Assembly (NCBI GenBank): GCA_024278755.1
Contig: JAJRSO010000038.1
Coordinates: forward strand, 186,001 to 250,000
DNA: 64,000 nt
Source of the DNA: Calditrichota bacterium
GTDB lineage: Bacteria; Calditrichota; Calditrichia; Calditrichales; Calditrichaceae
Direction: 5' to 3'
The notes beneath the pieces are model-generated. The model was not told the DNA's origin. It made no database searches and was given only the letters and a program-made list of their open reading frames with translations. The position numbers and the translations under genes were made by a program. Positions 46,462 through 63,975 of this stretch are shown here, piece by piece (the first letter of the stretch is position 1; every line of letters starts with the position of its first letter).

Positions 46462-49400
46462 ATGGCCATTGTTCAAGACGAAGAATTATTGCAGATGTTT
46501 ATTGAAGAGTCCAAGGAGCATATGGAAGGCATTGAAGCGGATTTCCTGGACATCGAAGAGATGGGTGAAGAGATTGATTCCGATTTGGTAAATAAGGTAT
46601 TCCGCGCCATCCATTCCATAAAAGGCGGCGCCGGTTTTCTCGGCTTGGATACCATTAAAAATCTTTCGCACAGTATGGAAAATACCCTTAATCTTGTACG
46701 AAACTCCGAATTAATTCCCAGTCCCGAAGTGATAAGTACGCTTCTTTCTGCCCTGGATACGTTACGAGATCTTATTGCGGATTTTATGAATAGCAACGAA
46801 GTGGATATTTCCGGGCACATTGCCGATTTAAAAATGGTTTCGGGCAATGAACTTACAGAAGCGCACATGCAAACAGAAGCGCCCGAAGTCGAAACAAGCG
46901 TCGCCGACATTCCGGCAGACGATACCATTGCGTCCGATTCCGAAGCCATCGTAAGTATCTCCTTGCCAAGCGGGCAGGTTATTTTTTCCATTTCGGAGTA
47001 CGACCTTAAACAGGCAACCAAAGCAGGACGTATTTTATATCTCGCTAAGTTTGATATGCTGAATGATATCGAACGAAAAAACCACACTCCGCTGGATGTC
47101 ATTAAAGAAATCCAGGATACAGGTATGTTGGTTGAAAGCAAAGTGGATATCGAATCCGTAGGAACCCTTGACGGGTTGGATGAACATCCGATAGTTCCGT
47201 TTTTTGTGTTATTTTCAACCGTATTGGAACCTTCCATTGCGCCTAAATTAATAAATCTTGATCCCTGGAAAATGTATCGGATAAATGAGGATTATCTGCT
47301 TACACCGTTGGCAGAAGCGCCGGCAACCGTAGAGGCACCGCCTGTTGCGCCAAAATCTAAAGGCAATAAAAAGGCCGCAAAGAAAACGGCAAAATCCAGT
47401 GCATCTGCACCTAAAGAACCAGCGAAAACTACGCCTAAAAAAACCGCTCCGGAATCGCCAAAACCGCAAAAAGCAATCCCGGCAAAACGTGCCGCCAAGC
47501 AGGCACATCCGAAAATCAGTACAAAAAGCACTACGCTCCGGGTAAATGTTAAACTATTGGATACGTTGATGAATCTGGCGGGCGAACTGGTTTTGACCCG
47601 AAATCAATTGCTGCAAAATTTTAGTAAAGCGGATGAAGCCGGCCTTGAAAATGCGGTACAGCGGGTGGATTTAATTACTTCCGAACTTCAGGAAGCGATT
47701 ATGAATACCCGGATGCAGCCCATCGGAAGCGTTTTTACAAAATTTCAGCGTGTAGTTCACGATATGTCCAAAAACCTCGGCAAGCAGGTTGATCTGATTA
47801 TCGAGGGCGAAAGTGTCGAATTGGATAAAACCATTATCGAAGCCATTGGCGATCCGTTGACGCATCTTGTACGTAATTCGATGGATCATGGCATCGAAAT
47901 GCCTGATGTTCGCGCCAAAGCGGGCAAGCGACTCCCCGCGGTTCTTAAACTGAGCGCTTTTCACGAAGCCGGACAGGTAAATATCGATGTGATGGACGAC
48001 GGCGGCGGGATCGATCCGCAGGTTGTAAAAAAGAAACTGCTTGAAAACGGCGAAATTGATAAAACAAAAATAGAAAATATGTCGGATAATGAACTGGTGC
48101 GTATGATCTTTAAGCCCGGTTTTTCCACAGCCAAAGAGGTTACCGAAGTCTCCGGACGCGGTGTGGGCATGGACGTTGTTTTTAGCAACCTCTCTAAATT
48201 AGGCGGTTCGGTTGATATCGAATCGAAGGTGGGCATCGGCACTACTATTCATATCAAACTGCCGCTTACACTCGCCATTATTCCCAGTTTAATTCTCGAT
48301 GTTGCCGGCGGAAGATATGCCATTCCGCAGGTTAATTTGGTGGAACTGGTGCGGATTCCCGCCGCCCAGGTGCAGGAACGTATCGAAAAAATTGAGGATG
48401 CTTCTTTACTTCGTTTGCGGGGAGAGCTTCTGCCCATCATTCGTGTTTCCGACGTCTTAAATATTAAACGCACTTTTTATGACCCGGAACTCGGCAAAAA
48501 TGTTGTAGACAGACGAAGCAATATCCCCGACCGCCGAAGCGTTGATTTGTCGGCCGATACCGAATCCACCTCCCCGGAAGAGATACAGGATAAACGAAAA
48601 GAGGCACAGGATCGTCGTGTAAACGCAAACAGCGCTTACAATATTGTTGTGGTTAATGCCGGCGATCTCAACTATGGTTTGATTGTGGATGCCTTGCTCG
48701 ATTCAGAAGAAATTGTCGTGAAACCACTGGGTAGCCATTTCAGAGGCATTAAAACCTATGCGGGCGCCACTATTCTCGGAGATGGCAAAGCGGCCCTTAT
48801 TCTTGATGTTATGGGGCTTAGCAATGCAATGAATCTGAAAATAGTAAAAGAGAAAATTACCGAAACTTCCGTACTGAAAAAACTTGAAAAATCAAAAGAT
48901 GCGCAATCGCTGTTATTGGTACAAAATGCTCCAGACGAGCAGTTTGCCGTCCCGCTTGGTCTGGTTTCGCGAATCGAAAAAATTAAAGTTTCGGACATTG
49001 AAAATACAAGCGGTAAAAAAACCATAAAATACCGTGGCAGCAGTTTGATACTTTGTTCCATCGAAGATGCGGCCAATGTAAAACCGCGCGCCGAAAAAGA
49101 AGAAATTTTTGTTATTATTTTTCCCTTTGCCGGAAAAGAAGTAGGCGTTCTCGTTTCCGAAATTATCGACGTCATCGATTCCACGGTCGCCATTGATGAA
49201 GAAACGTTCCGTCAACCGGGCGTTCTCGGTTCTGCCATTTTGATGGATCGCACCACACTGCTCCTGGATTTATATGGTATTATTTCCGCTGTAATGCCGG
49301 ATTGGGTGGCCGAAAACAAACTCGAAATCGAACAAAAGATAGAAGGTTCATCCAATATATTAATCGTAGAAGATTCCAGCTTTTTCTTAAACCAGATAAA

Positions 49401-49731
49401 GGGATTTACCGAAGGCGCAGGGTACACAGTTGTTACCGCGATGGATGGGATTCAGGGAGCAGAAGCCGCGGAAAATCCGGAAAATAATATTGATTTGATC
49501 TTAACCGATATCGAAATGCCGCAAATGGATGGGGTGCAAATGACCGAACGTCTGCGGGCTCAGGAGCGTTTTAACGATTTACCCATTTTGGCTTTGACCT
49601 CGGTAGCAGGCGATTTGGCCGAACAACGCGCGCTTGATGCGGGGATTGATGAATATCTGATTAAGCTGGACAGAGAGAAAGTTTTGGAACGGGTGCAATA
49701 TTACTTAACAAATGGCCGCGCGGGAAAATAA
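46462..49731 (+). CDS. cheA: CheA hybrid kinase with two CheW domains and a C-terminal receiver
   Basis: A 1089-residue chemotaxis kinase. The HPt domain (1-110) has phospho-His51 in FRAIHSIKGGAGFLG. A less clear P2-like segment (about 160-285) and a Lys/Ala/Pro-rich linker (about 290-352) follow. The dimerisation domain is at about 353-420 and the ATPase at about 420-600 (HLVRNSMDHGIE, DDGGGID, GRGVGMDVV). A CheW-like domain (about 600-790) has a charged insertion (about 671-727). A second CheW-like domain is at about 815-943, then a receiver (963-1085) with Asp1016. It starts 42 bp after the STAS gene with GACGGAGG upstream. Confidence 0.95.
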   Translation: MAIVQDEELLQMFIEESKEHMEGIEADFLDIEEMGEEIDSDLVNKVFRAIHSIKGGAGFLGLDTIKNLSHSMENTLNLVRNSELIPSPEVISTLLSALDTLRDLIADFMNSNEVDISGHIADLKMVSGNELTEAHMQTEAPEVETSVADIPADDTIASDSEAIVSISLPSGQVIFSISEYDLKQATKAGRILYLAKFDMLNDIERKNHTPLDVIKEIQDTGMLVESKVDIESVGTLDGLDEHPIVPFFVLFSTVLEPSIAPKLINLDPWKMYRINEDYLLTPLAEAPATVEAPPVAPKSKGNKKAAKKTAKSSASAPKEPAKTTPKKTAPESPKPQKAIPAKRAAKQAHPKISTKSTTLRVNVKLLDTLMNLAGELVLTRNQLLQNFSKADEAGLENAVQRVDLITSELQEAIMNTRMQPIGSVFTKFQRVVHDMSKNLGKQVDLIIEGESVELDKTIIEAIGDPLTHLVRNSMDHGIEMPDVRAKAGKRLPAVLKLSAFHEAGQVNIDVMDDGGGIDPQVVKKKLLENGEIDKTKIENMSDNELVRMIFKPGFSTAKEVTEVSGRGVGMDVVFSNLSKLGGSVDIESKVGIGTTIHIKLPLTLAIIPSLILDVAGGRYAIPQVNLVELVRIPAAQVQERIEKIEDASLLRLRGELLPIIRVSDVLNIKRTFYDPELGKNVVDRRSNIPDRRSVDLSADTESTSPEEIQDKRKEAQDRRVNANSAYNIVVVNAGDLNYGLIVDALLDSEEIVVKPLGSHFRGIKTYAGATILGDGKAALILDVMGLSNAMNLKIVKEKITETSVLKKLEKSKDAQSLLLVQNAPDEQFAVPLGLVSRIEKIKVSDIENTSGKKTIKYRGSSLILCSIEDAANVKPRAEKEEIFVIIFPFAGKEVGVLVSEIIDVIDSTVAIDEETFRQPGVLGSAILMDRTTLLLDLYGIISAVMPDWVAENKLEIEQKIEGSSNILIVEDSSFFLNQIKGFTEGAGYTVVTAMDGIQGAEAAENPENNIDLILTDIEMPQMDGVQMTERLRAQERFNDLPILALTSVAGDLAEQRALDAGIDEYLIKLDREKVLERVQYYLTNGRAGK

Positions 49732-49799: not shown

Positions 49800-51803
49800 A
49801 TGAGTTATAATTTTAACGTATCGGAAAAACGGCAAAGTATTAAATGGAAAATGACGGGTTTCCTTTTTGGTATTTTCATAGTAATAGGTATCATCCTTTT
49901 CTTCGTAAATCTAAATGGTGTAAAACAATCTTTGCAGAAAAACATGGAAGGTAAAATGGAAACTATTATCGAGAGTTTCCAATATAATGTTGCTTCCAAA
50001 GTAAACGATTTAAAAATAACGCAGAATTTTATTTTAAATGATCGGGAAACAATAGACCTTTTTGCCAACCGAGAACGGGAAAAACTATCGGATAAGTATC
50101 TGAGCCTTTTTCAGAACACCTTAAAACCCCGTTTTAAAGTGAATATTTTTCAATTTCATGTTGCGCCGGCTACTTCGTTTCTGCGCATTCATAAACCGGG
50201 GAAATTTGGCGATGATCTCTCCCGCTTCCGAAAAACGGTTGTACACGCCAATTCTGATAAAATCGTGCAGGCGGGAATCGAAGTGGGTAAATACGGCGCC
50301 AGTATCCGGGTAGTGTATCCGGTGGAAAATAACGGTGAGCATATAGGAAGCGTTGAATTGGGAGCGGACTATATCGATCTAATGGAAAATGTCGCCCGTT
50401 CTCTTAAAGTAGACTTTGCCATTGGTATTAAGGAAAATGTTTTAAAAGCGGCCGGATTTAAATTAAAAACAAAGACAATAAAAAAAGGGAATATTGTTTT
50501 TTATCATTTTTCCGGTGATCTCATAAAAAAACTTATTGACAATTATAAATTCGGAAATGACGTACATATTGAAGAAATTGACAACCGAACAATTGCCTTT
50601 AGCTCGTTTGAACTGAAAGATTATTCAATGGCCGACATTGGCAGAATTATCATTTCCAAAGATATCACCAAGCTCCTGAACGATGCAAAAGCCGCTGTGT
50701 ATGGTAAAATAGCCCTGCTTTTCATGTTTATCTTTATTGTAGCCATTATTATCTATTTCCTTTTAACAAGGTCTGTTTTTAGCCCTCTTTCATTAGCCGT
50801 AAAAAGTTTAGAATTAGTTGCCGAAGGCGATTTAACCAACACGCTGCAGTACCATTCAAACGATGAACTGGGGCGTCTGACGGAAACTATAAATGAGATG
50901 TCCGCGAATCTCAGAAAAATGGTTTCGGATATCCGTGAAAAAGCGGAAACGTTAACAACTTCTTCGCAAGAGTTTTCATCCATTTCCAATGGTATGATGT
51001 CCAATTCCGAAAATCTAAGCGAAAAGAGCGCTTCCGTTTCCAGCGCGGTGGAAGAAATGAATGTAAATATGTCAACCATTGCCGCTGCCTCGGAACAATC
51101 CAGCACAAATATCACTAATGTGGTTTCAACCACCGAAGAAATGGCCAGCACTGTATCGGAAATTTCACAGAATACCGCACAAGCGCAGCAGATAGCGTCC
51201 CGTGCTGTGGAAGCAGCGGTAAGCGCCTCGGAAAAAATTAATGCCTTAGGACACTCTGCGGAAGATATTAGCCGGGTTATCGAAGTGATTAACGACATTG
51301 CCGATCAAACGAAATTATTGGCTTTAAATGCCACCATAGAGGCTGCCCGGGCCGGAGAAGCGGGAAAAGGATTTGCCGTCGTGGCCAATGAAGTTAAAGA
51401 ACTCGCCAGGCAAACCAATGAGGCCACCGAAGGTATAACAACAAAAATTAAGGCCATGCAGGAATCCACAGGAATTTCGGTTAAGGAAATTAATAAAATA
51501 AGTAGTGTGATTTCAGAAATAAATGAAATTACGGCCGGCATCGCATCTGCCGTTGAAGAGCAAGCCGTTACGACTAAAGATATATCCGGAAATCTGGGGC
51601 ATGCCGCTCAGGGAGTGAATGATGTGAATACCAGTGTAAATCAGGCGGGAGAAGCGGTTCGTCTGATAGCGGAAGATATTACAACATTAAACAAAGAAAC
51701 AAAGGAAGTAAAAAACGCCAGCCAACAAGTGGAAAACGGCGTTAAAAATATGACGCAGCTTAGTAACGATTTAAAACAACTGGTTGAAAATTTTAAATTA
51801 TAA
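49800..51803 (+). CDS. Methyl-accepting chemotaxis protein with large extracytoplasmic sensor
   Basis: A 667-residue membrane receptor. A first membrane helix (about 18-40), an approximately 255-residue outer sensor region, a second helix (about 301-325), a HAMP domain (about 325-375) and a signalling coiled-coil domain (376-667) follow in order. The hairpin tip reads [20 protein letters not shown]. The sensor shows FHVAPATSFLRIHKPGKFGD and VEL-GADY stretches like cache/dCache-type sensors, but the ligand is unknown. It is flanked by cheA and cheW, so is likely part of one array. TAGGAG precedes the ATG. Confidence 0.92.
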   Translation: MSYNFNVSEKRQSIKWKMTGFLFGIFIVIGIILFFVNLNGVKQSLQKNMEGKMETIIESFQYNVASKVNDLKITQNFILNDRETIDLFANREREKLSDKYLSLFQNTLKPRFKVNIFQFHVAPATSFLRIHKPGKFGDDLSRFRKTVVHANSDKIVQAGIEVGKYGASIRVVYPVENNGEHIGSVELGADYIDLMENVARSLKVDFAIGIKENVLKAAGFKLKTKTIKKGNIVFYHFSGDLIKKLIDNYKFGNDVHIEEIDNRTIAFSSFELKDYSMADIGRIIISKDITKLLNDAKAAVYGKIALLFMFIFIVAIIIYFLLTRSVFSPLSLAVKSLELVAEGDLTNTLQYHSNDELGRLTETINEMSANLRKMVSDIREKAETLTTSSQEFSSISNGMMSNSENLSEKSASVSSAVEEMNVNMSTIAAASEQSSTNITNVVSTTEEMASTVSEISQNTAQAQQIASRAVEAAVSASEKINALGHSAEDISRVIEVINDIADQTKLLALNATIEAARAGEAGKGFAVVANEVKELARQTNEATEGITTKIKAMQESTGISVKEINKISSVISEINEITAGIASAVEEQAVTTKDISGNLGHAAQGVNDVNTSVNQAGEAVRLIAEDITTLNKETKEVKNASQQVENGVKNMTQLSNDLKQLVENFKL

Positions 51804-51845: not shown

Positions 51846-52295
51846 ATGAATAATAAAGCGAAGCCGGACGAAGTTCGGGAGTTAACCATATTTGAAGTAG
51901 GACCCATTACCTGCGCTTTGAGTATTCAGGATATACAGGAAATCAACAAACATCTCGAAATGACGGATGTGGCCAATGCGCCGGATTACATCCGCGGTAT
52001 CTGTAATTTACGGGGAGCCATCATTACCGTAATCGATATGCGTATAAAATTTGGCATGGAACCAAAGGAATTTGACGAAAACACACGCATTGTCGTTGTA
52101 AAGAACCAGGATGAGCTATTGGGGCTTTTGGTCGATCGAATGCTCGATGTGCTTAATGTTTCTGACGATGAGCTGGAGCCAACGCCATCCAATATTAATG
52201 GGGTTGCCGGCCGCTATTTTTCAGGAATTTATAAAATGGAAAGCAGTCTCGCCGCGCTTTTGAACGTCTCGGAAATACTATCTGTTTCCGAATAA
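51846..52295 (+). CDS. cheW: CheW coupling protein
   Basis: A 149-residue CheW that couples receptors to CheA. It contains the CheW signature ITCALSIQDIQEI, DYIRGICNLRGAIITVIDMR and LGLLVDRMLDVL. The length is standard. It lies between two receptor genes in the same operon, with short gaps on both sides. AAGGCAGG precedes its ATG. Confidence 0.95.
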   Translation: MNNKAKPDEVRELTIFEVGPITCALSIQDIQEINKHLEMTDVANAPDYIRGICNLRGAIITVIDMRIKFGMEPKEFDENTRIVVVKNQDELLGLLVDRMLDVLNVSDDELEPTPSNINGVAGRYFSGIYKMESSLAALLNVSEILSVSE

Positions 52296-52344: not shown

Positions 52345-54447
52345 ATGTTAAAAAATGTAAACCTCTTAACCAAAATCCTCGCAGGGTTCGGACTGGCTAT
52401 CCTGTTTTTTATTTTTATCGGTTTTATCGGCCTCAACTCCGTTTCCAATATTTCGGATTCTGCTATGGAACTGCAATATATGGATGAAATTAAAATTAAT
52501 CTCTTGGAACGGGAAATCGATCACCTTAATTTTGTCAATAAAGTTTCCGAAGGCCTCAGAGATGTTGATATCAAAGTGCTTCAGGTAAAAAAGGATGATC
52601 ATGCCTGTAACCTGGGGAAATTTTTATATGGAGATGAACGCCGGAAAGCGGAATCCATTATACCGGATTTAATACCCGTTTTTAAGGCATTGGAAAGTCC
52701 GCATCATGATTTACACCGTTCGGTTATAGAAATGGATGACATGTTAAGCGATCCCGAAATAAACCGTCAGGATATATGGGATTACTACAATGCGGTAACA
52801 ATCCCTGCCTTGTTGGAAGTACGACGTAAAATAAATATAGCAAATACAATAATTTCCCATGATTCGGAAATTACCTTAGAAGGTTTTCAGGCCACTAAAC
52901 GTGCAATGCGTACGACTGTTATTATTACCCTTCTTGTGGGGCTTGCCTTTGCATTGTTTATTGGCATTGTTATTCGACGTTCCATTAAAAAGCCAATCGA
53001 ACAACTGTTAAGTCAGATTCAAAAGCTTGCAGACGGAGATTTAAGTAACAGGGTGGAGGATTACAGTGAGGACGAACTCGGTACGGTTACGCAGGCTTTA
53101 AATGAAATGGCGGGACATTTGGATGAATCTATTTTGACCGTTGCGGAAAACGCACGGCGTTTAAAAAAATCGGCAGAAGAATTAAACTCCGTATCGCAAA
53201 CGTTGTCGGAAAATGCCCGGGATATGAATGAAAAAGCAACCAATGTGGCCTCCGCCTCCGAGGAGATGAGCGTTACAATGGATACGGTTTCCGATACCTC
53301 TGGCCAGGCGACCGGTAATATTGGCACCGTGGCGCAAAATACGGAAGAAATGACTTCCACTGTAAATGAAATCGCTCAGAATTCTGAGAAAGCACATCAG
53401 ATTACCCAGCAGGCCGTTGAAAATGTTCAGGGAGCCGCAGAAAAAGTAAATGAATTAGGCGCTGCCGCCAGCGATATAAGCAAAGTAATTGACGTTATTC
53501 TGGATATTGCCGAACAAACAAAACTTTTAGCGCTCAATGCCACTATCGAAGCGGCCAGAGCCGGTGAAGCCGGTAAAGGGTTTGCCGTTGTGGCCAGTGA
53601 GGTAAAAGAGCTTGCCGGGCAAACCAACAATGCCACAGAAGAAATACGTAAACGGGTTAATGCCATCCAAAATTCAACCGACGCTACCGTGGCCGAAATT
53701 GACAGCATTAATTCTGTTATCGGTCAGGTGGATGAAATTGTTTCCACCATTGCCACCGCCGTGGAAGAACAGAATGTAACTACCCGGGATATTTCCGCTA
53801 ATATTAACCAGGCTGCACAGGGCATTCAGGAAATGGCAGAAAATGTAAATCAGACGGCAGAAGTTGCAAAATCCGTGGCTTCCGATGTCGCTTCTGTAAG
53901 CGCTTCCAGCGAAAATGTGTATTCCGAAAGCGCACTTGTTGACGCCCATACTAATGATTTAATGGCTATTAATACTGCGCTAAATGATGTGGTTAACCAA
54001 TTTAAGCTTTCCAAAGAGGTATCACTTTCATCCGGTCAAGATATTTTAATTGTATGGGGTCCCAAAATTAAAATTGGCATCGATGTAATTGACCGACAGC
54101 ATAAACGGCTGGTTGATTTAATTAATGAGTTGCATCGCGCAATGAAACAGCGAAAAGGCGCTGAAGTTTTAAGCCGGATTATGAATGGCCTGGTTGATTA
54201 TACAAAAGAGCATTTTGATTATGAAGAAGGACTGCAGGCTAAAGCGGGATACCCGGATTTGGATACTCATAAAGAAGTGCATCGTAATCTGGTAAAAAAA
54301 GTTGAGGCGTATCAAGCCAAAATAAAGGATGGTGAAAAATTAGTGACAAAAGATCTTTCCGCCTTTTTAAAAGACTGGCTTGTAAACCACATTCTGGGAA
54401 CAGATACAAAATATGTTCCTTATTTTAAAAAAGCGGGTATAAATTAA
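52345..54447 (+). CDS. Chemoreceptor with CZB-like zinc site and C-terminal hemerythrin
   Basis: A 700-residue receptor. After a first membrane helix (about 10-32) the outer domain carries a CZB-type metal pattern: His60, Cys88 in ACNLGKF, and His120/121 plus His124 in SPHHDLHR. A second helix (about 190-213), HAMP and the signalling domain (about 270-545, tip [20 protein letters not shown]) follow. The C-terminal part (about 565-695) is a hemerythrin with His586 in IDRQHKRL, then [14 protein letters not shown] and NHILGTD. It likely senses oxygen, nitric oxide or redox state. Family knowledge: hemerythrin receptors such as DcrH bind oxygen. Confidence 0.92.
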
Positions 54448-54558: not shown

Positions 54559-56202
54559 ATGAACTTGAGTATCAAAGTTAAACTGGGCGCTATTGTTTTT
54601 GGAATGGCCGGAGTAATTGTATTAATGTTTCTTATTACATGGATTACAACCAACAATCAAAAAGACGATGGCCTGGTTATAAATCTGGCCGGGCGGCAAC
54701 GCATGCTTAGCCAAAAAATTACAAAAGAAACATTACATTTTTTAAATGAAAGCGAAAAAACGGGAACGATTGACGAAAAATTGGCCGAACAGGTGCGAAC
54801 GACAATGACCATTTTTAACACAACCCTTAATGCGCTTAAAGAATCCGGTAAAGCCCCGCTATCGCTCGATCTGTCCGGGAAATTTCGTCGTTGTCCCAAG
54901 GCCGAAGAACCGGCATACAGTCAGTTAGCCAAAGTTAAAGATATCTGGGTTCCGTTTCAAAGCCGGATCAATTCAATTTTAGGAAATCCGAATCAGGAAG
55001 ATCTAAAATGGATAATGGAAAACAATACGGTTTTGCTATCCGAAATGAATAAAGCGGTTGGAATGATGCAAAAGCAATCGGAAGAAAAAATAAGCTTGTT
55101 GCTGACCCTGCAGATATTTGGTGTTATTATCGGTTTGCTTTTTGCAGCTCTGGCCTTAAAAGTTGCCTTCGGAATAACAAAACGACTAAGAGCAATATCC
55201 GATTTTTCCGAACACATGAGCCGAGGCGATTTCACTTTCTCAATTGAAGAAAGCGGACGCAATGAATTAGAAGAAATCATTACGGAATTAAATGAAACGA
55301 CCTCAAATGTTGGTAAAATGGTTGAGAAGATTCAATTTAAGACCAGTGAGCTGGATTCCGCAGCTAATGACTTGAACGGATTTTCCAATGAATTACTGGA
55401 AAGCGCTTCCAATCTGAATGAACGCGCTGTTTCCACTGCGGCGGCCAGCGAATAAATGAGCGTAAATATGAACACCGTTTCGAGCGCCGTTACCCAAACC
55501 AATGAGAGTATTCAGATTATCTCAAACAATACGGCAGAATTAAGCGCAACGGTAACCGAAATTTCGCAAAATACCGAAAGCGCGCGCAGGGTGACTTCCG
55601 AGGCCGTACAAAGCGTAGCATCTGCCGCGGATAAGGTAAGTGAATTAAATGATTCCGCAAAAGGAATCGGGCAGGTAATCGATTCCATTATTGAAATTTC
55701 CGAACAAACAAAACTGCTGGCCCTAAACGCCACAATCGAAGCGGCACGGGCGGGAGAAGCGGGAAAAGGATTTGCCGTGGTGGCAAACGAGGTAAAAGAA
55801 CTTGCCGCGCAAACCAACTCTGCTACCGAAGAAATCCGCGATAAGATTAATACAATGCAAAATTCAACAAAAGATACCATTGCACAAATCCGAAATATTA
55901 CTGAAGTCATTGATAATGTCAATGAAATTGTAAATACCATTGCTTCCGCAGTGGAAGAACAATCGATTACCACAAGGGATATTGCCGGAAATATTGAGCA
56001 TACGACAGAAGCAACAACCGAGATGACCAGTAACGTCAGTCAGGCGGCGGAAGTTTCCGGGATGATTGCATCGGATGCAGCCAGCGTTAATGAAGCCAGT
56101 AACCAGGTAAACAGCGTTAGCACAAAAGTAGCGGATAATGCACATATCCTCACAGATATAAGTAAAGAAATTCAGAAGATGGTTTCTGCTTTTAAGTTTT
56201 AA
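54559..56202 (+). pseudogene. Chemoreceptor with PilJ/NarX-like sensor, split by an in-frame stop
   Basis: Two adjacent open frames in the same phase together form one receptor. Residues 1-298 (54559-55455) contain a helix (about 10-32), an outer sensor with the P-box-like INLAGRQRMLSQKI motif of PilJ/NarX-type nitrate sensors, a second helix (about 179-203) and HAMP. TAA at 55453-55455 stands where the neighbouring receptors have Glu in ASEEMSVNM. An ATG follows at once (TAAATG, 55456) and runs 248 residues through the signalling tip [21 protein letters not shown] single GAA to TAA change explains it. Restart could still make the signalling domain, without a visible ribosome site. Confidence 0.85.
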
Positions 56203-56341: not shown

Positions 56342-57445
56342 ATGGCTAACCGGAAACTAAAAGTTCTTATTGTCGACGATACCGCATTGTACCGGAAGAT
56401 AGTAAGGGATGTGCTGGCGGAATTTAAAGAAGTGGAAGTGGTTGGCAGTGCGCCAAATGGTAAAATTGCATTGGATAAAATAAATATTTTAAATCCCGAT
56501 ATGATTACCCTCGATCAGGAAATGCCGGAAATGGACGGGATGGAAACACTCCGTCGGATAAAAATACTTAAAAAAAACATTGCGGTAATTATGGTTAGCG
56601 CTTACACAACTGAAGGCGCCGCTCTTACTATGAAAGCCCTTAACCTGGGCGCTTTTGATTTTATTGCCAAACCGGATAGCAATAATCTTCAGGATAATAT
56701 AAAGAATTTTAGGGAACAGTTTAAACCCAAAATTGAAGCGTACGTGAACCGCTTGCAAATAAAAGAATCCGCGTCTCATGTAAAAAGCGTCTTTCCCTCT
56801 GCAACGCCAAAAACAGCTGAAACCGGAATCGAATCCCATAAATCAGGACTGACAGGGAAACCGCAAATTGTGGCAATCGGAATCAGTACCGGCGGCCCCA
56901 AAGCTTTGGCTGATGTTATTCCGCAAATTCCTTCCGGACTTGGCGTACCCGTTGTGATTGTACAGCATATGCCTCCGGTATTCACAAAAGCTTTGGCCGA
57001 TTCGTTAGATAAAAAAAGTCCGCTTCAAATTATCGAGGGAGCAAACGGACAGCAATTATTGCCGGATACCGTTTACATTGCCCCTGGAGGGAAACAGATG
57101 AAAGTTGCTCAGGGCAACGGCATCGGCAAATATATTTTAAAAATAACCGACGATCCGCCTGAAAATCATTGTAAGCCGTCTGCCGATTACCTGTTTCGTT
57201 CCATTGCCGGTGTCTTTCCCGGGAAAGCCTTAGGCGTCATTATGACCGGGATGGGCAGAGACGGAACCATCGGTTTACGTTTAATGAAACGTAATGGAGC
57301 AAAAATTTTAGCTCAGGATGAAAAAACCTGCGTGGTCTATGGAATGCCTATGGAAGCCGTGAAAGCGGGAGTCGTGGATATGGTCCTGCCGTTAAATCAA
57401 ATTGCAAGAAAAATAACAGGCATTGTAAAAGGAATTCAGAATTAG
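56342..57445 (+). CDS. cheB: CheB receptor methylesterase
   Basis: A 367-residue protein with a receiver (1-120; VDDTAL, Asp58 in ITLDQEMPEMDG) and a C-terminal methylesterase (about 175-365). Its catalytic Ser, His and Asp lie in IGISTGGPKAL, VIVQHMPP and GMGRDGTIGL. It removes methyl groups from or deamidates the receptors encoded nearby. The ATG follows GGAAGGGAA. cheR follows 44 bp later. Confidence 0.95.
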   Translation: MANRKLKVLIVDDTALYRKIVRDVLAEFKEVEVVGSAPNGKIALDKINILNPDMITLDQEMPEMDGMETLRRIKILKKNIAVIMVSAYTTEGAALTMKALNLGAFDFIAKPDSNNLQDNIKNFREQFKPKIEAYVNRLQIKESASHVKSVFPSATPKTAETGIESHKSGLTGKPQIVAIGISTGGPKALADVIPQIPSGLGVPVVIVQHMPPVFTKALADSLDKKSPLQIIEGANGQQLLPDTVYIAPGGKQMKVAQGNGIGKYILKITDDPPENHCKPSADYLFRSIAGVFPGKALGVIMTGMGRDGTIGLRLMKRNGAKILAQDEKTCVVYGMPMEAVKAGVVDMVLPLNQIARKITGIVKGIQN

Positions 57446-57489: not shown

Positions 57490-58326
57490 ATGTTAAAAAT
57501 ATTACCGGATGAACTTACTGTTGTTGCAAAATATGTACACGAGCAGACAGGGATTGTTCTGGACAACAGCAAATCGTATCTCATAGAAAGCCGCCTTGGC
57601 CCCCTGGCGGAAGAACTGGGATGCCGTAGCTATAATGAGCTTCTTATGAAAGCCCGCACGGATATGCGGCATACCGTCCAAAACAGAATCATTGATGCAA
57701 TTACCACCAACGAAACATTCTTCTTTAGAGACAATAACCCTTTTGAATTGTTGCGCCATAAGGTTTTCCCTGATCTCTTTGATAAAATCATGGCCCCGGG
57801 AAATTTTAGCAAACGATTGAAAATATGGAGCGCCGCATGCTCTACCGGGCAGGAAGTGTATAGCATCGCGGTGATACTTAGGGAATTGTTGCCCGATGTG
57901 GATAGCTGGAACATTCGCATTCTCGGAACCGATATTTCCGACGCGGCCATTGCCCAAGCCAGTTACGGCCGTTATAACCGAACCGAAATAAGCAGGGGAT
58001 TGAATCCCTCGCAGCTTAGTAAATATTTTATTCAGGACGGAAATTCATACCGAATAAAAGATGAATTACGCGCCATGGCCATGTTTAAAAAACAAAACCT
58101 TTTAAAGCCTTTTATAGGTATGGAAAAATATGATATTATTTTGTGCCGGAATGTCGCCATTTATTTTAGCCCGGACAGCCGGAAGGATATTTTTGAACGT
58201 ATCGCCAATCAGCTTAATCCCGGCGGTATTTTAATCATTGGCGCTTCCGAGTCATTAATGGGCATTACAGACCGTTTTACCCGTAAGGACTATATGCGCT
58301 CCGTATTTTATCAACTTAAAAGCTAA
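57490..58326 (+). CDS. cheR: CheR receptor methyltransferase
   Basis: A 278-residue SAM-dependent methyltransferase for receptor glutamates. An N-terminal helical domain is followed by TTNETFFFRDNNPFELLR, SAACSTGQEVYSIA, LGTDISDAAIAQA and a late IILCRNVAIYFS. These are the classical CheR motifs. It pairs with cheB in the same direction and with receptors upstream, so this operon has a full adaptation system. It has no C-terminal TPR. Confidence 0.95.
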   Translation: MLKILPDELTVVAKYVHEQTGIVLDNSKSYLIESRLGPLAEELGCRSYNELLMKARTDMRHTVQNRIIDAITTNETFFFRDNNPFELLRHKVFPDLFDKIMAPGNFSKRLKIWSAACSTGQEVYSIAVILRELLPDVDSWNIRILGTDISDAAIAQASYGRYNRTEISRGLNPSQLSKYFIQDGNSYRIKDELRAMAMFKKQNLLKPFIGMEKYDIILCRNVAIYFSPDSRKDIFERIANQLNPGGILIIGASESLMGITDRFTRKDYMRSVFYQLKS

Positions 58327-58336
58327 GAGAATAAAA

Positions 58337-58660
58337 ATGACAAAGGAAAAAGAGAAACGTATTCGGAAACGGGTTGCTTATATAATTGATTCGATTTTTT
58401 ATCCGACGGACGGAGAGAAAATATCCGGCACCATTCAGGACCTCAGCATGAATGGCTTTTATTTAAAAACCGCACGGCCCCGATTAAAAAATACAATTGG
58501 GGAACTTAAAATTTTATTGAAGCTGGGAGATAAGGTTAAAACAGTGCAGGCGACCTGTCGCGTTACCCGTACCGATACAGACGGAATGGCCTTAACAATA
58601 ACTCAGATTAACGAAGAAAGCTCAATTACACTATTTAATATGATCAAATTCTATTTATAA
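58337..58660 (+). CDS. PilZ-domain protein
   Basis: A 107-residue protein with a PilZ fold. The N-terminal arginine motif (KRIRKRV) and DLSMNGFYL lie in the order expected for c-di-GMP binding. It sits 10 bp after cheR, so c-di-GMP probably feeds into the chemosensory output; whether this one binds c-di-GMP needs the RxxxR arginines, which are seen. There is no other domain. Confidence 0.8.
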   Translation: MTKEKEKRIRKRVAYIIDSIFYPTDGEKISGTIQDLSMNGFYLKTARPRLKNTIGELKILLKLGDKVKTVQATCRVTRTDTDGMALTITQINEESSITLFNMIKFYL

Positions 58661-58683: not shown

Positions 58684-60309
58684 ATGGAAATAAACAGAGA
58701 CGATTATATCCATGAGTTGAAGGAAAATATTGGCAGTCGCGATGTAATTAAAGCGCGCATTATTATTGATCATCTCCCACAAATGGATGAAGATACGCAG
58801 ATTCGGATTTTATTCGAATTAAGCCGCGCCGACGATGATTTTGCAATTCCGCTTCTGGCCCGTATGTATCAGATAGCAAAGCAGTTACAGATACCTCCGG
58901 GACAAATCAAAGAAATTCTCGAAAAAAAAATTGAAGAATTTCCGTTTGCTCTGCTCGAAATCATACAGGATGACGCCATCACGGATAAAACAGAGTATAT
59001 CCGTATGGCGGGAATTGTACAATGCAATAATTCGGTTCCGGTTATTCTGAATTTACTGCGCAAAAGTAATGATGTGGCCTTTAACAAAACCTGTATCGAA
59101 GCGTTAGGAAAGATTGGGAACCCCAAATCCATAACCGAACTCTCCGATTACCTCTATTCGGGTCAGCGTGATCTCACCATTACGGCCATAACAGCTTTAA
59201 AAAATTTAGGTACGCCCGAAGCGGTAGAACGGTTATCCGAACGTATGGGTACCGATACGGAATTTGACCGTATGATAATCGAAGCGGCCGGCGCCATTCG
59301 CGACCAAAAATCATTACAACTAATGAGCAAAATGCTGTTATCCCACGATACGTATTTGCGTAATTACAGCATAGATAAACTAACCGAAATTGGCAGTAAA
59401 TCCATCCCGTTAATTGTTGATAATTTGTCAAGCAAAAATTCAGATTTATTAATCCATACCTTAAATATTCTTGGAAATATCGGAGATGCGGACGCTGTAC
59501 AACCGATTCGCCGTTTACTGTTTAACGAACCCAGGAATGCCAATGTGCGGTTTGCCGCCTATGAAGCGTTAGGTAAACTTCCCCTGCAGAAAGGCGCTTA
59601 CGTCCTTACCGCAGGGCTTTCGGACCCGGAACCACATGTCCATGTGGCCGCCGCAAAAGCGTTGGAGCGAAATCTGGATACAACGATTATTGCCGGAATT
59701 AAAAATCTAATTCGGAGCTCGGAGGAAGACGGAAAAAATATCGTGGCGGCGTTTTTAAATGCCGAAGCCGACAATACCGTAAAAGCATTGATTGCAAACG
59801 AAACTTTCCGTGATTTAACAATTGAATACTTAAAAGAAACGGCGCATCCCGATCTAAAGGCGCATTTTGCAACCGTTTTGAATGAGGCCGGATTTAGCGA
59901 AATTGTAAAACAATTCGGAGCAAAAGTTGAAGAAACCGCTTCAAAAGAAAAACCGCTTATTTTTGCCGTTGATGATTCGCGAATGATCTTAAAAATTTAC
60001 AAAAGTACGCTGCATCAACTAGGGTATCCCGCGCAACTCTTCGAGTTTCCGGAAACCGCGTTACAGCAATTAAAAGAATCGAAACCCGGGATTATCATTA
60101 CCGATTTAAATATGCCTGCGATGAATGGTGTAGAATTAACTACAGAAATCCGAAAACTCTACGATAAAGAAACATTGCCTGTTTCAATGGTAACCACACA
60201 ACAGGATTTACAAGACAGGGAAGCCGCTTTTGCTGCCGGAATAAATGGTATAATTTACAAGCCGTTTACAAAAGATGCATTAGAAGAAGAACTATTAAAA
60301 TTTAATTAA
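58684..60309 (+). CDS. HEAT-repeat protein with C-terminal receiver domain
   Basis: A 541-residue cytoplasmic protein. Residues about 20-415 form HEAT/PBS-lyase-like helical repeats (for example NKTCIEALGKIGNPKSITEL and VRFAAYEALGKLPLQKGAYV). A receiver follows (about 425-541) with IFAVDDSRM, phospho-Asp474 in ITDLNMP and a late IYKPFTKDALEE. It has no DNA-binding or enzyme output. A signal-dependent scaffold is a reasonable guess. It starts 23 bp after the PilZ gene and is followed by the CheD-HDOD gene. Confidence 0.85.
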   Translation: MEINRDDYIHELKENIGSRDVIKARIIIDHLPQMDEDTQIRILFELSRADDDFAIPLLARMYQIAKQLQIPPGQIKEILEKKIEEFPFALLEIIQDDAITDKTEYIRMAGIVQCNNSVPVILNLLRKSNDVAFNKTCIEALGKIGNPKSITELSDYLYSGQRDLTITAITALKNLGTPEAVERLSERMGTDTEFDRMIIEAAGAIRDQKSLQLMSKMLLSHDTYLRNYSIDKLTEIGSKSIPLIVDNLSSKNSDLLIHTLNILGNIGDADAVQPIRRLLFNEPRNANVRFAAYEALGKLPLQKGAYVLTAGLSDPEPHVHVAAAKALERNLDTTIIAGIKNLIRSSEEDGKNIVAAFLNAEADNTVKALIANETFRDLTIEYLKETAHPDLKAHFATVLNEAGFSEIVKQFGAKVEETASKEKPLIFAVDDSRMILKIYKSTLHQLGYPAQLFEFPETALQQLKESKPGIIITDLNMPAMNGVELTTEIRKLYDKETLPVSMVTTQQDLQDREAAFAAGINGIIYKPFTKDALEEELLKFN

Positions 60310-60344: not shown

Positions 60345-61694
60345 GTGTTCGAATTTAATGTTGAAACAGTGCCCTCCGGGATGTATGAAGTGGAATATAA
60401 GACACAGAAAACGTTGCGCGCATTCTTAGGTTCCTGCGTCGGTGTGGTTTTAATTGATAATATTGCCAAAATCGGAGGATTACTTCATATTCTTCTGCCG
60501 GAGCCACCGGCCAAGGCAGCCGTGGACGAACCGGAAAAATACGCTTCTACGGCCGTTCCTCTTTTTATTGAAGCCATGACCTCAAAAGGCGCTACGATTG
60601 AAAATATGGTGGCTTTTGTGGCCGGCGGCTCTTTGGTTGGTCAGGTCTCGATGATGGATTTAAAGCTGGATATCGGAGGAAAATCGGCTGAAATAGTAGA
60701 GCATTATTTAAAACTGGAAAACATAAAAATAGATACCGTAGAAACCGGGGGCTATCTTTCCAGCCAAATATCTTTAAATTTGGAAACGCTCGAATGTGAA
60801 ATCAAACCGATTCTGAATATACATACCTTTATAGATGAACCCGAAAATGAGCAGGCGCAGGGGATAGACATTCAGGCGGCCATTAATTCCGTTAAACCCA
60901 TTCCGCAGATTGCTTTAAAAGTCATTCGAATGATCAATTCCAACGTGATTTCCATGACCACAATTGCCGAAGAAATCCGAAAAGACCAAATCATTGCCGC
61001 AAAAGTACTGCAACTAAGTAATTCCGCGTATGTTAATCCCGGGAAAACCATCGATTCCATTGACAAAGCGCTTATCCTGCTCGGAGAAAAACGGATTCTT
61101 CTGTTAACATTGTCTGTTTTTACAGAAATGTTTTATCAACAGGCGGATCAGGGCTATTCCTTAATAAAAGGGGGATTATTCCGCCATTCTACCGAAGTGA
61201 GTTTTATCTCGGAGAAACTGGCCTTGTATACCGATAAAGCGGATGCGGATGCTGCGTTTACGGCCGGGCTGCTGCACGATATCGGAAAAACTGTTTTAGA
61301 CCAGGCTATGGCAACGGATTATCCGCTTTTTTATCGAAAAATGATGGGCAATTCCGGGGCAAATCTGATTGAAATTGAAAAAGAAATGTTTGGTTTTAAC
61401 CATAATGAAACAGGCGCCAAGCTATCGGAAAAATGGGCGCTGCCCGCCGGGCTTAGCGAGGCTATTTCGGTCCATCACACTCCCGAAAGAGCCGTTAATG
61501 AAAAAGAGCTGACGCATTTGATTTTTCTCTCCGATATTCTGGCACATAGCTACTCAGCGGGGAATTCCATTAGCAGTCATTTTTCCGGCGATATGCGCGA
61601 AACGTTAAATATTCTTAATTTAACACCGGCTAAGATTACCGAATTTATCGATTCTATTGCATGGAATGAAGTTAACGGAATGGAATTGATTTAA
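60345..61694 (+). CDS. CheD-HDOD fusion protein
   Basis: A 449-residue protein. Residues 1 to about 160 are a CheD deamidase-like domain with Cys31 in FLGSCVGVVLID and His48 in GLLHILLP; the position of the usual catalytic Thr before GSC holds Arg or Ala. The HDOD domain (about 180-445) has IPQIALKVIRMIN, VLQLSNSAY and AGLLHDIGK. CheD acts on receptor glutamines; HDOD proteins work in signalling. The start is GTG 60345 with AAAGGAA upstream. It closes the plus-strand chemosensory run. Confidence 0.88.
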   Translation: MFEFNVETVPSGMYEVEYKTQKTLRAFLGSCVGVVLIDNIAKIGGLLHILLPEPPAKAAVDEPEKYASTAVPLFIEAMTSKGATIENMVAFVAGGSLVGQVSMMDLKLDIGGKSAEIVEHYLKLENIKIDTVETGGYLSSQISLNLETLECEIKPILNIHTFIDEPENEQAQGIDIQAAINSVKPIPQIALKVIRMINSNVISMTTIAEEIRKDQIIAAKVLQLSNSAYVNPGKTIDSIDKALILLGEKRILLLTLSVFTEMFYQQADQGYSLIKGGLFRHSTEVSFISEKLALYTDKADADAAFTAGLLHDIGKTVLDQAMATDYPLFYRKMMGNSGANLIEIEKEMFGFNHNETGAKLSEKWALPAGLSEAISVHHTPERAVNEKELTHLIFLSDILAHSYSAGNSISSHFSGDMRETLNILNLTPAKITEFIDSIAWNEVNGMELI

Positions 61695-61736: not shown

Positions 61737-62162
61737 TTAATCGTCATCATCCGAATCGGGTATGCTGTATTTTATTAATCCTACCTGTTCAATTGTTTTA
61801 AGCACTTTATCTCTGCTAAACGGCTTTGCGATATAACTATCACATCCTGCAGCCATGGCTTTGGTCACAGTTTTGCGATCATTAAACGTACTGATTACCA
61901 CAACCTTGGACCGTTTATCTCCCTTCAGGTCAAAATCCTTTTCGAATTGACGAATGCTGCGTAATACTTCAAATCCGTCTATCTCGGGTAAGAGCAAATC
62001 AAGACAAATAAGATCGTAGGGTTTACCTTTTGTAAAAGCCTTCGTATACTTGTCAATGGCAATATTTCCATTCTGTGCGTAATCAATTTTACTGTACGGC
62101 TCCAGAATACGTTCCAGAATGAGCGCCAGAAAATGAACGTCTTCAACTATTAAAGTGCGCAT
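61737..62162 (-). CDS. Single-domain response regulator (CheY-like)
   Basis: A 141-residue receiver with a short acidic tail (PDSDDDD). It has LIVEDVHFL, the phospho-Asp in ICLDLLLPEIDGFEVL, a Ser/Thr near VVISTFND and Lys in YIAKPFS. No output domain is present. It is convergent with the CheD-HDOD gene and may be the diffusible target of the cluster's CheA; the CheA itself also carries a receiver. The assignment as a motor-binding CheY is not proven. Confidence 0.88.
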   Translation of the reverse strand: MRTLIVEDVHFLALILERILEPYSKIDYAQNGNIAIDKYTKAFTKGKPYDLICLDLLLPEIDGFEVLRSIRQFEKDFDLKGDKRSKVVVISTFNDRKTVTKAMAAGCDSYIAKPFSRDKVLKTIEQVGLIKYSIPDSDDDD

Positions 62163-62475
62163 AAATTACTTCATGTAAGTTCCTGTTTCCCAACATATCG
62201 ACTTAAACCTGCATAACCTTAGCGGCAAAAAAAATTCTAAGAAATGGAATAATTTTAAGAGTTACAGTTAAAACCGAGCGCACGGAAAATATTTTTCACC
62301 TGCGGAAATCTTTTCCCGTTTTCATTTTCTATCGTTTATTTCGGCTTCCTTTCAATTCTGCCCAGTTTATTCTACCTCTTTGTTATTTAAAGTGTTAGCC
62401 CTGTTAATTATTTTTATTTGTCTGTAAATGTATTTTGGCACGCAGCTTGTATTAAGATTTGCGAGGAGAAGAACA
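62163..62475. other. 313 bp intergenic region holding the flgB promoter
   Basis: This AT-rich stretch separates the divergent response regulator and flgB genes. It contains a sigma-54-type promoter at 62436-62451. No other structured element or gene was identified by eye. Confidence 0.7.
62436..62451 (+). promoter_or_regulatory. Sigma-54 (RpoN) promoter upstream of flgB
   Basis: TGGCACGCAGCTTGTA matches the -24/-12 consensus TGGCACG-N4-TTGCA at every fixed position except C to T in the -12 element, with exact spacing. The predicted start near 62462 falls almost on the flgB ribosome site (GAGGAG, 62463-62468), so the leader would be about 14 nt. Many flagellar rod genes use RpoN. Confidence 0.75.
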
Positions 62476-62844
62476 ATGAAGATATTTAATTCACCGGGAG
62501 TTGAGTTAGTTAAAAAGTCATTAAATGTTTATACCCGTCAACATGAGGCCATTGCAAAAAACATCGCCAATGCGAACAATGACGATTATAAACGCGTGCG
62601 TACGGATTTTTCTAAACTCTTAACGGAAAATCTGGAACGGGGCTTAAAAACCACACGTCCCGGCCATATAGCGGAATCAAAAACACCGCAACCAAAGCAT
62701 TTTCCCGGCTCAAGAGAAAAAGTTGATTTGTCACAGGAAATGGGTCAGCTGGCGGAAAATCAAATTAAATATGATTTTGCCGCCCGCGCCCTGGCGCGTA
62801 AGTATAAAGCCTTACGTTTAAGTATCACCGGCAGAAACAGTTAA
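62476..62844 (+). CDS. flgB: Flagellar basal-body rod protein FlgB
   Basis: A 122-residue rod protein exported by the flagellar secretion system. N-terminal HEAIAKNIANANNDDYKRV is the rod/hook family motif, and the C-terminal helix continues the pattern. ATG 62476 is chosen because GAGGAG lies 7 bp upstream and gives a normal FlgB length; an in-frame ATG at 62428 precedes the promoter and is unlikely. It is followed by flgC after 9 bp. Confidence 0.93.
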   Translation: MKIFNSPGVELVKKSLNVYTRQHEAIAKNIANANNDDYKRVRTDFSKLLTENLERGLKTTRPGHIAESKTPQPKHFPGSREKVDLSQEMGQLAENQIKYDFAARALARKYKALRLSITGRNS

Positions 62845-62853
62845 GGGGAAGAG

Positions 62854-63345
62854 ATGAAAATCGGAGGTTTGTTTACTGCAATTCATACGACTTTGAATGG
62901 TATGTCCAATCAGGTTACCCGGCTGGATGCAATTTCGGAAAATATTGCCAATGCCGAAAAAGTTCCCGATAAAAACGGGAAAGTGTACAAACGGAAGATC
63001 GTTGTTTCTAAAAATTTTGGCGGTCCCGAAGAATCTCGCTTTAAAAATGAGCTAAGCCTGCGTATGCGTACTACCCGTACGGATCATATGCGCAGTAAAA
63101 CCTTATCCGGTCCGGCCGGCTTTGCCGATAAGGGTACAAACGTTAAAATTATCTCGCAGGAAGGCTTTAAACTGGAATACAATCCCGGACATCCCAGAGC
63201 CGACGAAAACGGGTATGTAAAAATGCCTAAAATAAACAGTGTGGAAGAGATGGTCGATTTAATGGCCACCAGCCGCACATACGAGGCTAATGTTACGGTA
63301 TTAAACGCCGCAAAAACAATGGCAAAACGGGCATTGGAGATTTAA
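62854..63345 (+). CDS. flgC: Flagellar basal-body rod protein FlgC
   Basis: A 163-residue proximal rod protein. The N-terminal motif RLDAISENIANAEKVPDKNGKVYKRK (core ISENIANAEKVPD) and the C-terminal NPGHPRADENGYVKMP and EEMVDLMATSRTYEANV are diagnostic of FlgC. It is slightly longer than Escherichia coli FlgC (about 134), with an insertion near the middle. It is in the flgB operon. Confidence 0.95.
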   Translation: MKIGGLFTAIHTTLNGMSNQVTRLDAISENIANAEKVPDKNGKVYKRKIVVSKNFGGPEESRFKNELSLRMRTTRTDHMRSKTLSGPAGFADKGTNVKIISQEGFKLEYNPGHPRADENGYVKMPKINSVEEMVDLMATSRTYEANVTVLNAAKTMAKRALEI

Positions 63346-63348
63346 ACC

Positions 63349-63636
63349 ATGAATATTTCTAACCGTACGCCGCTTATTCGTCCGACGGAAAATCCATACC
63401 ATCAGTTTCGTCCGTTAAACGGATTAAATTCAACAAAAAACAATAATCCGGCCATGGCCAAAACAGGGCCTTCCACGACAAATTTAATGCCGACGGCTCC
63501 CGAAAATATTCTATCCATAAGAGAAAAAGAGACCCTTCAGGCGCTGTTCAGCGGAACGTCTAAAGAGCATACCTTCTATGGCACTGCCAAAGCAGGAAAT
63601 ATTCAGTCCGGGTTTTTACTGGATATAAAAGGATAA
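63349..63636 (+). CDS. Unrecognised small protein between flgC and fliE
   Basis: A 95-residue protein. The first half is low-complexity and rich in Asn, Pro and Thr; the second half (about 55-95) has a predicted helix (SIREKETLQALFSG) and a strand-like end (GFLLDIKG). No signal peptide or membrane segment is seen. It begins 3 bp after flgC and ends 15 bp before fliE, so it is probably co-expressed with rod genes and may be an export chaperone or rod accessory. This is inference. Confidence 0.6.
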   Translation: MNISNRTPLIRPTENPYHQFRPLNGLNSTKNNNPAMAKTGPSTTNLMPTAPENILSIREKETLQALFSGTSKEHTFYGTAKAGNIQSGFLLDIKG

Positions 63637-63651
63637 AAGGAAGAGTGTATT

Positions 63652-63975
63652 ATGGCTAATATTGGCAAGCTTCAAACCGTTAATCTGCAAGAATTAACCG
63701 GAAAAAATCCGGGAGCACAAATCAATAAAACACGGAAGGCCGAAGAAGCAGGCGCCCGTGATTTCGGAAAAACAATTTCGGATTTTATTATGGCTGTAAA
63801 TGCCGATCAAAAGACAGCGTCAAAAGAAGTAAATGACGTTATTTTGGGTAAATCCGAAAATTTGCATGAAGCAATGGCCTCAATGGAAGAAGCGCGTCTT
63901 AGTTTTCAACTGATGGTTGAGGTGCGTAATAAATTAATGGAATCATACAAAACATTACAACGAATGCAGGTTTAA
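63652..63975 (+). CDS. fliE: Flagellar hook-basal body complex protein FliE
   Basis: A 107-residue protein linking the MS ring to the rod. The C-terminal half carries the FliE pattern VNADQKTASKEVNDVILGKSENLHEAM (core ASKEVNDVILGKSENLHEAM) and SFQLMVEVRNKLMESYKTLQRMQV (core VRNKLMESYKTLQRMQV). AGGAAGAG precedes the ATG. Gene order flgB-flgC-x-fliE is as in many bacteria. The operon likely continues past the window. Confidence 0.92.
   Translation: MANIGKLQTVNLQELTGKNPGAQINKTRKAEEAGARDFGKTISDFIMAVNADQKTASKEVNDVILGKSENLHEAMASMEEARLSFQLMVEVRNKLMESYKTLQRMQV

Follow-up and report, generated by a model that had tools for sequence, protein, structure and literature searches.

In Bacillus, the chemotaxis proteins CheC and CheD interact, and CheD deamidates chemoreceptors and raises receptor methylation (PMC340952). 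Given this interplay, a CheD in a bacterium without CheC would need some other control, or none. The catalytic triad of Thermotoga maritima CheD comprises Cys27, His44 and Thr21, and the third member is variable in the enzyme superfamily, being a backbone carbonyl in CNF1 (PMC7022378). HDOD proteins include those of Geobacter (3hc1) and Shewanella (3m1t), and three that affect motility: Xanthomonas GsmR, Campylobacter jejuni Cj0248 and Pseudomonas SadB (PMC11004494, PMC6543031, PMC13104612). According to PMC6543031, what HDOD does mechanistically is not established. SadB acts as an adaptor for AmrZ (PMC13104612), and its N-terminal half is YbaK-like, not CheD (PMC6543031). In Geobacter, some che clusters of group alpha include an HD-domain gene, the HD proteins being stand-alone (PMC2577667) and not described as partners of CheD.

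Here we describe a gene that joins the two domains, in a 64,000-nucleotide stretch of a Calditrichaceae genome (the window; positions 186,001 to 250,000 of contig JAJRSO010000038.1, assembly GCA_024278755.1). The gene occupies 60345–61694 of the forward strand, with a GTG start immediately preceded by AAGGA, which resembles a ribosome-binding site, and a TAA end, and encodes 449 residues. The first-pass annotation had read it as a single frame with a CheD-like domain, retaining Cys31 and His48, followed by an HDOD domain with the motif LLHDIGK. All of this was borne out by the open frame, the residue alignments given below, and two Pfam matches far above their cut-offs. The CheD half (residues 1–156; 60345–60812) matches PF03975 over residues 50–154 with 65.7 bits (E 5e-18; cut-off 25), and the HDOD half with its C-terminal helices (residues 176–449; 60870–61691) matches PF08668 over residues 185–380 with 155.9 bits (E 1.1e-45; cut-off 22.9). 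With phmmer, residues 20–152 find T. maritima CheD (2f9z chain C; E 2.7e-18), and the rest of the protein finds solved HDOD proteins, including 3hc1, 3m1t and 9qzk (SadB).

Structure prediction, which the same annotation had suggested, placed both folds in one chain. An AlphaFold model built on an eight-row alignment was poor (pLDDT 68), and a second, built on 54 rows, reached a pLDDT of 88 and a pTM of 0.73 and contains both a CheD and an HDOD fold. The two are separated by a linker (residues 157–175; 60813–60869) that is a low-confidence stretch in the models, with pLDDT below 50 for residues 157–173 in the first and 161–163 in the second. The top Foldseek hit of the CheD half is again 2f9z chain C (TM 0.85 on target, rmsd 2.0 Å), and the HDOD half finds 3hc1 (TM 0.72 on target), 3m1t (0.76) and SadB 9qzk. 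The fusion thus shares with the CheD deamidases of T. maritima and Bacillus subtilis the fold, the catalytic Cys and His, and a place in a che operon. It differs from them in carrying an HDOD domain, in having Arg for the triad Thr, in the loss of an Asn and an Arg, and in coming from a genome without a CheC match. With the named HDOD proteins it shares the domain and the HD-type residues; several of these are linked to motility and none is fused to CheD, whereas the window protein is tied to a chemosensory operon. SadB resembles it in layout: it controls motility and also has an N-terminal enzyme-like domain followed by a C-terminal HDOD.

A PF03975 search of the phylum recovered frames of 447–466 residues in eight genomes of the family: the window genome, G001, G002, G003, G004, G006, G008 and G010. 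The whole protein aligns across all eight, and the other seven are 39–60% identical to the window protein. A scan of genome contigs found a single true relative, and contig JANTHG010000081.1, of the same family, carries a fusion gene with 60% identity to that of the window. This conservation bears on the possibility that a frameshift or misassembly had joined two genes; the first-pass annotation had named a frameshift as something that would undo its reading. Such an origin would be in keeping with the fragmentation of the window assembly (79 contigs) and with an in-frame stop in a receptor gene of the same operon. The fusion is, however, one open frame in eight separate genomes, one of which (G001) is a single-contig assembly, which argues against a local assembly frameshift; we therefore reject the artefact, whose probability is negligible. 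Within the family, the fusion strictly co-occurs with flagella: the flagellar marker FliE was found in 8/8 fusion genomes and in 0/7 family genomes without the fusion, three of the latter being only 72–76% complete.

In the CheD half, Cys31 (60435–60437) and His48 (60486–60488) align with T. maritima Cys27 and His44, and are present in all eight fusions, as in 109/110 and 110/110 other CheDs, respectively. The third triad position, that of Thr21, is occupied by Arg25 (60417–60419), and by Arg or Gln in seven of the eight fusions, with Thr only in G006. We considered this loss as proof of inactivity and dropped the idea, as Thr is missing from many CheDs and does not strictly define them: its equivalent is kept by 15/16 CheDs with an adjacent hdod gene, and missing in about half of those without one. 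Two further changes set the fusions apart. The position of T. maritima Asn104, which is Asn in 110/110 non-fused CheDs, is Ser114 here (60684–60686) and Ser or Thr in every fusion, and that of Arg130, Arg in 106/110 non-fused CheDs, is Ser140 (60762–60764), the Arg being lost in every fusion. Lys85, Asp62 and Gly139 are also changed in the fusions relative to the 110 other CheDs. CheDs that lie beside a separate hdod gene look canonical, with Cys and His in 16/16, so the residue change belongs to the fusion and not to HDOD association as such.

Judged by these residues, the fused CheD half is a diverged CheD and not a plain deamidase. With both Asn and Arg gone, it may lack deamidase activity, and the combination of retained Cys and His with lost Asn and Arg suggests retained chemistry directed at an altered substrate or partner. 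The same losses, together with that of Thr21 in most fusions, would also suit a rival reading, in which the CheD half has no deamidase activity and acts as a receptor-docking module that brings HDOD to chemoreceptor arrays. HDOD would then be the output, acting on flagellar gene expression, regulator stability or c-di-GMP signalling, in the manner of the motility-related GsmR and SadB; the effects of GsmR, Cj0248 and SadB on motility speak for such a role. An invariant Cys and His among proteins with 39–60% identity would, however, be unexpected in a dead enzyme.

The HDOD half retains a full set of HD-type positions, all invariant in the eight fusions: the metal-ligand positions His281 (61185–61187), His353 (61401–61403) and His377-His378 (61473–61478; within HHTPERAVNE), and His311-Asp312 (61275–61280), the HD of LLHDIGK. 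These residues also occur in most generic HDODs (21–24 of 25; HD itself in 21/25), and therefore mark the domain as HDOD rather than as a special enzyme; LLHDIGK was accordingly rejected as a sign of special activity. An HD-GYP c-di-GMP phosphodiesterase was also rejected, as Pfam returns only HDOD and the general HD family, and GYP does not occur in the sequence. The intact set counts against the view that the protein is an ordinary active CheD deamidase in which HDOD is merely a passive scaffold or dimerisation domain. That view can draw on the kept Cys-His dyad, on the variability of the third triad residue in the superfamily, and on the missing Thr21 of many CheDs without an adjacent hdod. 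It is at odds with the loss, in the fused form alone, of residues that are near-universal in CheD, and with the repeated adjacency of hdod to cheD in other phyla (below), and we regard it as improbable.

The surrounding genes had been described as a complete chemotaxis operon with the fusion at its end, which holds for most of its parts. On the forward strand, these are a 1089-residue CheA that carries several CheW-type domains and ends in a receiver (46462–49731), chemoreceptor 1 (49800–51803), CheW (51846–52295; PF01584), chemoreceptor 2 with zinc-binding (CZB) and hemerythrin domains (52345–54447), chemoreceptor 3 with a PilJ-type sensor (54559–56202), CheB (56342–57445), CheR (57490–58326), a PilZ-domain protein (58337–58660; PF07238) and a HEAT-repeat protein that ends in a receiver domain (58684–60309). 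A stand-alone CheY is lacking from the operon; elsewhere in the genome, contig 77 encodes a receiver resembling CheY and a CheZ-like protein. Downstream, at 62428–63975 on the forward strand, the flagellar basal-body operon begins with flgB, flgC and fliE, the last matching PF02049.

Several neighbours merit brief description. Chemoreceptor 3 is interrupted by the in-frame TAA mentioned above (55453–55455), which separates the sensor and signalling halves, has an ATG directly 3′ of it, and falls at the second Glu of an EEM motif in other receptors. Homologous receptors exist intact, and the stop may represent a mutation, re-initiation or an assembly error. The HEAT-receiver gene directly 5′ of the fusion is kept in one other locus (L033; 63% identity), and no full-length counterpart was found in the remaining clusters read. 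Between the fusion and flgB, a receiver-domain protein is encoded on the opposite strand (61737–62162); receivers are similarly placed in L036 (two copies), and one lies 3′ of the fusion in L031.

The fusion occurs in two genomic settings. In G001, the cluster order is cheR-cheB-cheD-receiver-receiver-CheZ-like-FapA-receiver-sigma-54 regulator-CheD-HDOD. Five of the eight genomes (G001–G004 and G006) encode a canonical stand-alone CheD about 7.4 kb from the fusion, and in five fusion genomes the fusion lies directly 3′ of a 458–462-residue regulator gene of one kind (the sigma-54 regulator in G001). In G001 and G002, flgB-flgC-fliE come after the fusion. The fusion of the window genome, like that of G008, instead closes a different chemotaxis operon, that with the large CheA and several CheW-type domains, and is followed by flgB; in G010 it also closes an operon of the large-CheA type, but flgB is on another contig. 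Of the canonical cluster, the window genome keeps the receiver-CheZ-FapA-sigma-54 part, which stands alone on contig 77 (L198). A generic HDOD gene lies about 6 kb from this part, with a similar arrangement in G008 (L200).

These settings can be read in favour of docking: a canonical CheD is at hand in five of the eight genomes, the fusion gene directly follows a regulator gene in five and adjoins flgB in several, and the window operon includes a PilZ gene. In the window genome, G008 and G010, however, the fusion is the sole CheD, and the unfused pairs of other phyla keep a canonical CheD beside HDOD. On balance, a CheD half that only docks seems to us rather unlikely.

To place the fusion in a wider context, 385 genomes across bacteria were surveyed, 116 of which encode CheD, and 94 CheD loci outside the phylum were read. 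A separate hdod gene lies within 400 nt 3′ of cheD on the same strand in 16 of the 94 (15 genomes, 15 families), against 0.04 expected by chance (from an HDOD density of about 2.3 per Mb across twelve pair-bearing genomes); the 94 loci are not independent by descent, yet the 16 pairs span 15 families. Among the same loci, none had an hdod within 400 nt upstream of cheD or on the opposite strand, and other HDODs comprised seven farther 3′ on the same strand, one upstream and one on the opposite strand. The pair occurs in operons with cheR, cheB and cheY-like genes, and in three of the loci read (L128, L192 and L194) its two genes share 4 nt. Two operon regions (L128 and L106) hold two different CheDs, one of them followed by hdod. 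Internal stops were seen in the hdod gene of L108 in G117 (TAA) and in the cheD matches of G413:C5 and G417:C5 (TAG).

A tree of HDODs separates the che-linked domains, among them the fused ones, from the generic domains encoded by those genomes at a cost of two label changes, and the fused HDODs group in a single clade (support 100/100). In the CheD tree, 15/16 pair-associated CheDs fall in one clade (SH-aLRT 99), together with 11/12 stand-alone Calditrichota CheDs. Outside this clade lies the fused CheD, on a branch so long that it could not be placed. Judged from domain content and gene order, the fusion is the Rosetta-stone form of a recurring cheD-hdod gene pair, and CheD and HDOD probably work together; adjacency is evidence of a functional link, not of binding. 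The idea of the first-pass annotation that CheD output is coupled to an HDOD partner thus survives in part. A functional link is likely, given a conserved fusion tied to flagella and adjacent genes in 16/94 loci, whereas receptor deamidation is a more doubtful candidate for the coupled output: the CheD half kept Cys and His but lost residues found in nearly all the other CheDs compared.

We estimate a probability of about one half for the reading we prefer, namely that this is a genuine fusion through which Calditrichaceae, in their flagellar chemosensory system, carry in joined form the cheD-hdod pair found repeatedly in che operons, with HDOD as partner of CheD in a CheC-like role. In such a system, the HDOD half would bind CheD and gate its action on receptors according to pathway state, as CheC does in Bacillus and Thermotoga. 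The fused CheD half would probably recognise chemoreceptors and keep its Cys/His hydrolase chemistry, with its substrate or partner contacts changed. CheC, which has no kinship with HDOD, acts as a phosphatase on CheY-P, and no phosphatase role of the CheC type is proposed for the HDOD half; that role could be filled by the CheZ-like protein, which is found in most flagellated family members, including the window genome. CheD would thus have a dedicated partner in both systems, the partner proposed here being HDOD, and the partnership here being drawn from fusion and gene order only.

No match to CheC (PF04509) was found in any of the 40 phylum genomes searched, the window genome among them. 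CheC matches are rarer in genomes with an adjacent pair (5/15) than in other CheD genomes (55/66; Fisher p 2.6e-4, uncorrected for descent), and the PF04509 profile picks up relatives of CheC as well, FliY for example. An independent-pairs test on the CheD tree gave only three supported pairs and no signal linking CheC absence to HDOD adjacency; with no power once descent is counted, the association is kept as a hint only. Our own reading is that HDOD may serve as a dedicated partner of CheD in bacteria that lack CheC, its usual one. More tentatively, HDODs encoded beside cheD could form a general, undescribed class of CheD partners that replaces CheC as regulator in many phyla, with the Calditrichaceae fusion as its covalent form. 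The main value of the fusion is as a pointer to this recurring CheD-HDOD partnership: together with the operon pair, it provides a specific proposed partner for HDOD that is directly testable, and the partnership, if true, would account for the regulation of CheD in those CheD-bearing bacteria that lack CheC.

The impression that the architecture is not common agrees with what was sampled, where it is rare: no CheD-HDOD fusion was found outside the family in the 385 surveyed genomes, a sample in which weak matches were partly read, nor in a fusion-profile search of 74 genomes from one further phylum, that of G298, and fusions may exist beyond this sample. A literature search that reached few subscription papers found none naming both CheD and HDOD, or describing the pair, and, as far as searched, CheD-HDOD is a new domain architecture. 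Long-frame CheDs in other phyla were considered as further examples and rejected, as they are either CheD-receiver fusions or carry an unrelated upstream frame in GC-rich DNA. The former, with CheD followed by a C-terminal receiver-like domain in frames of 312–323 residues, occur in five genomes of other phyla (G102, G373, G243 twice, G178 and G232; loci L050, L051, L052, L053, L054 and L055), and represent another CheD architecture.
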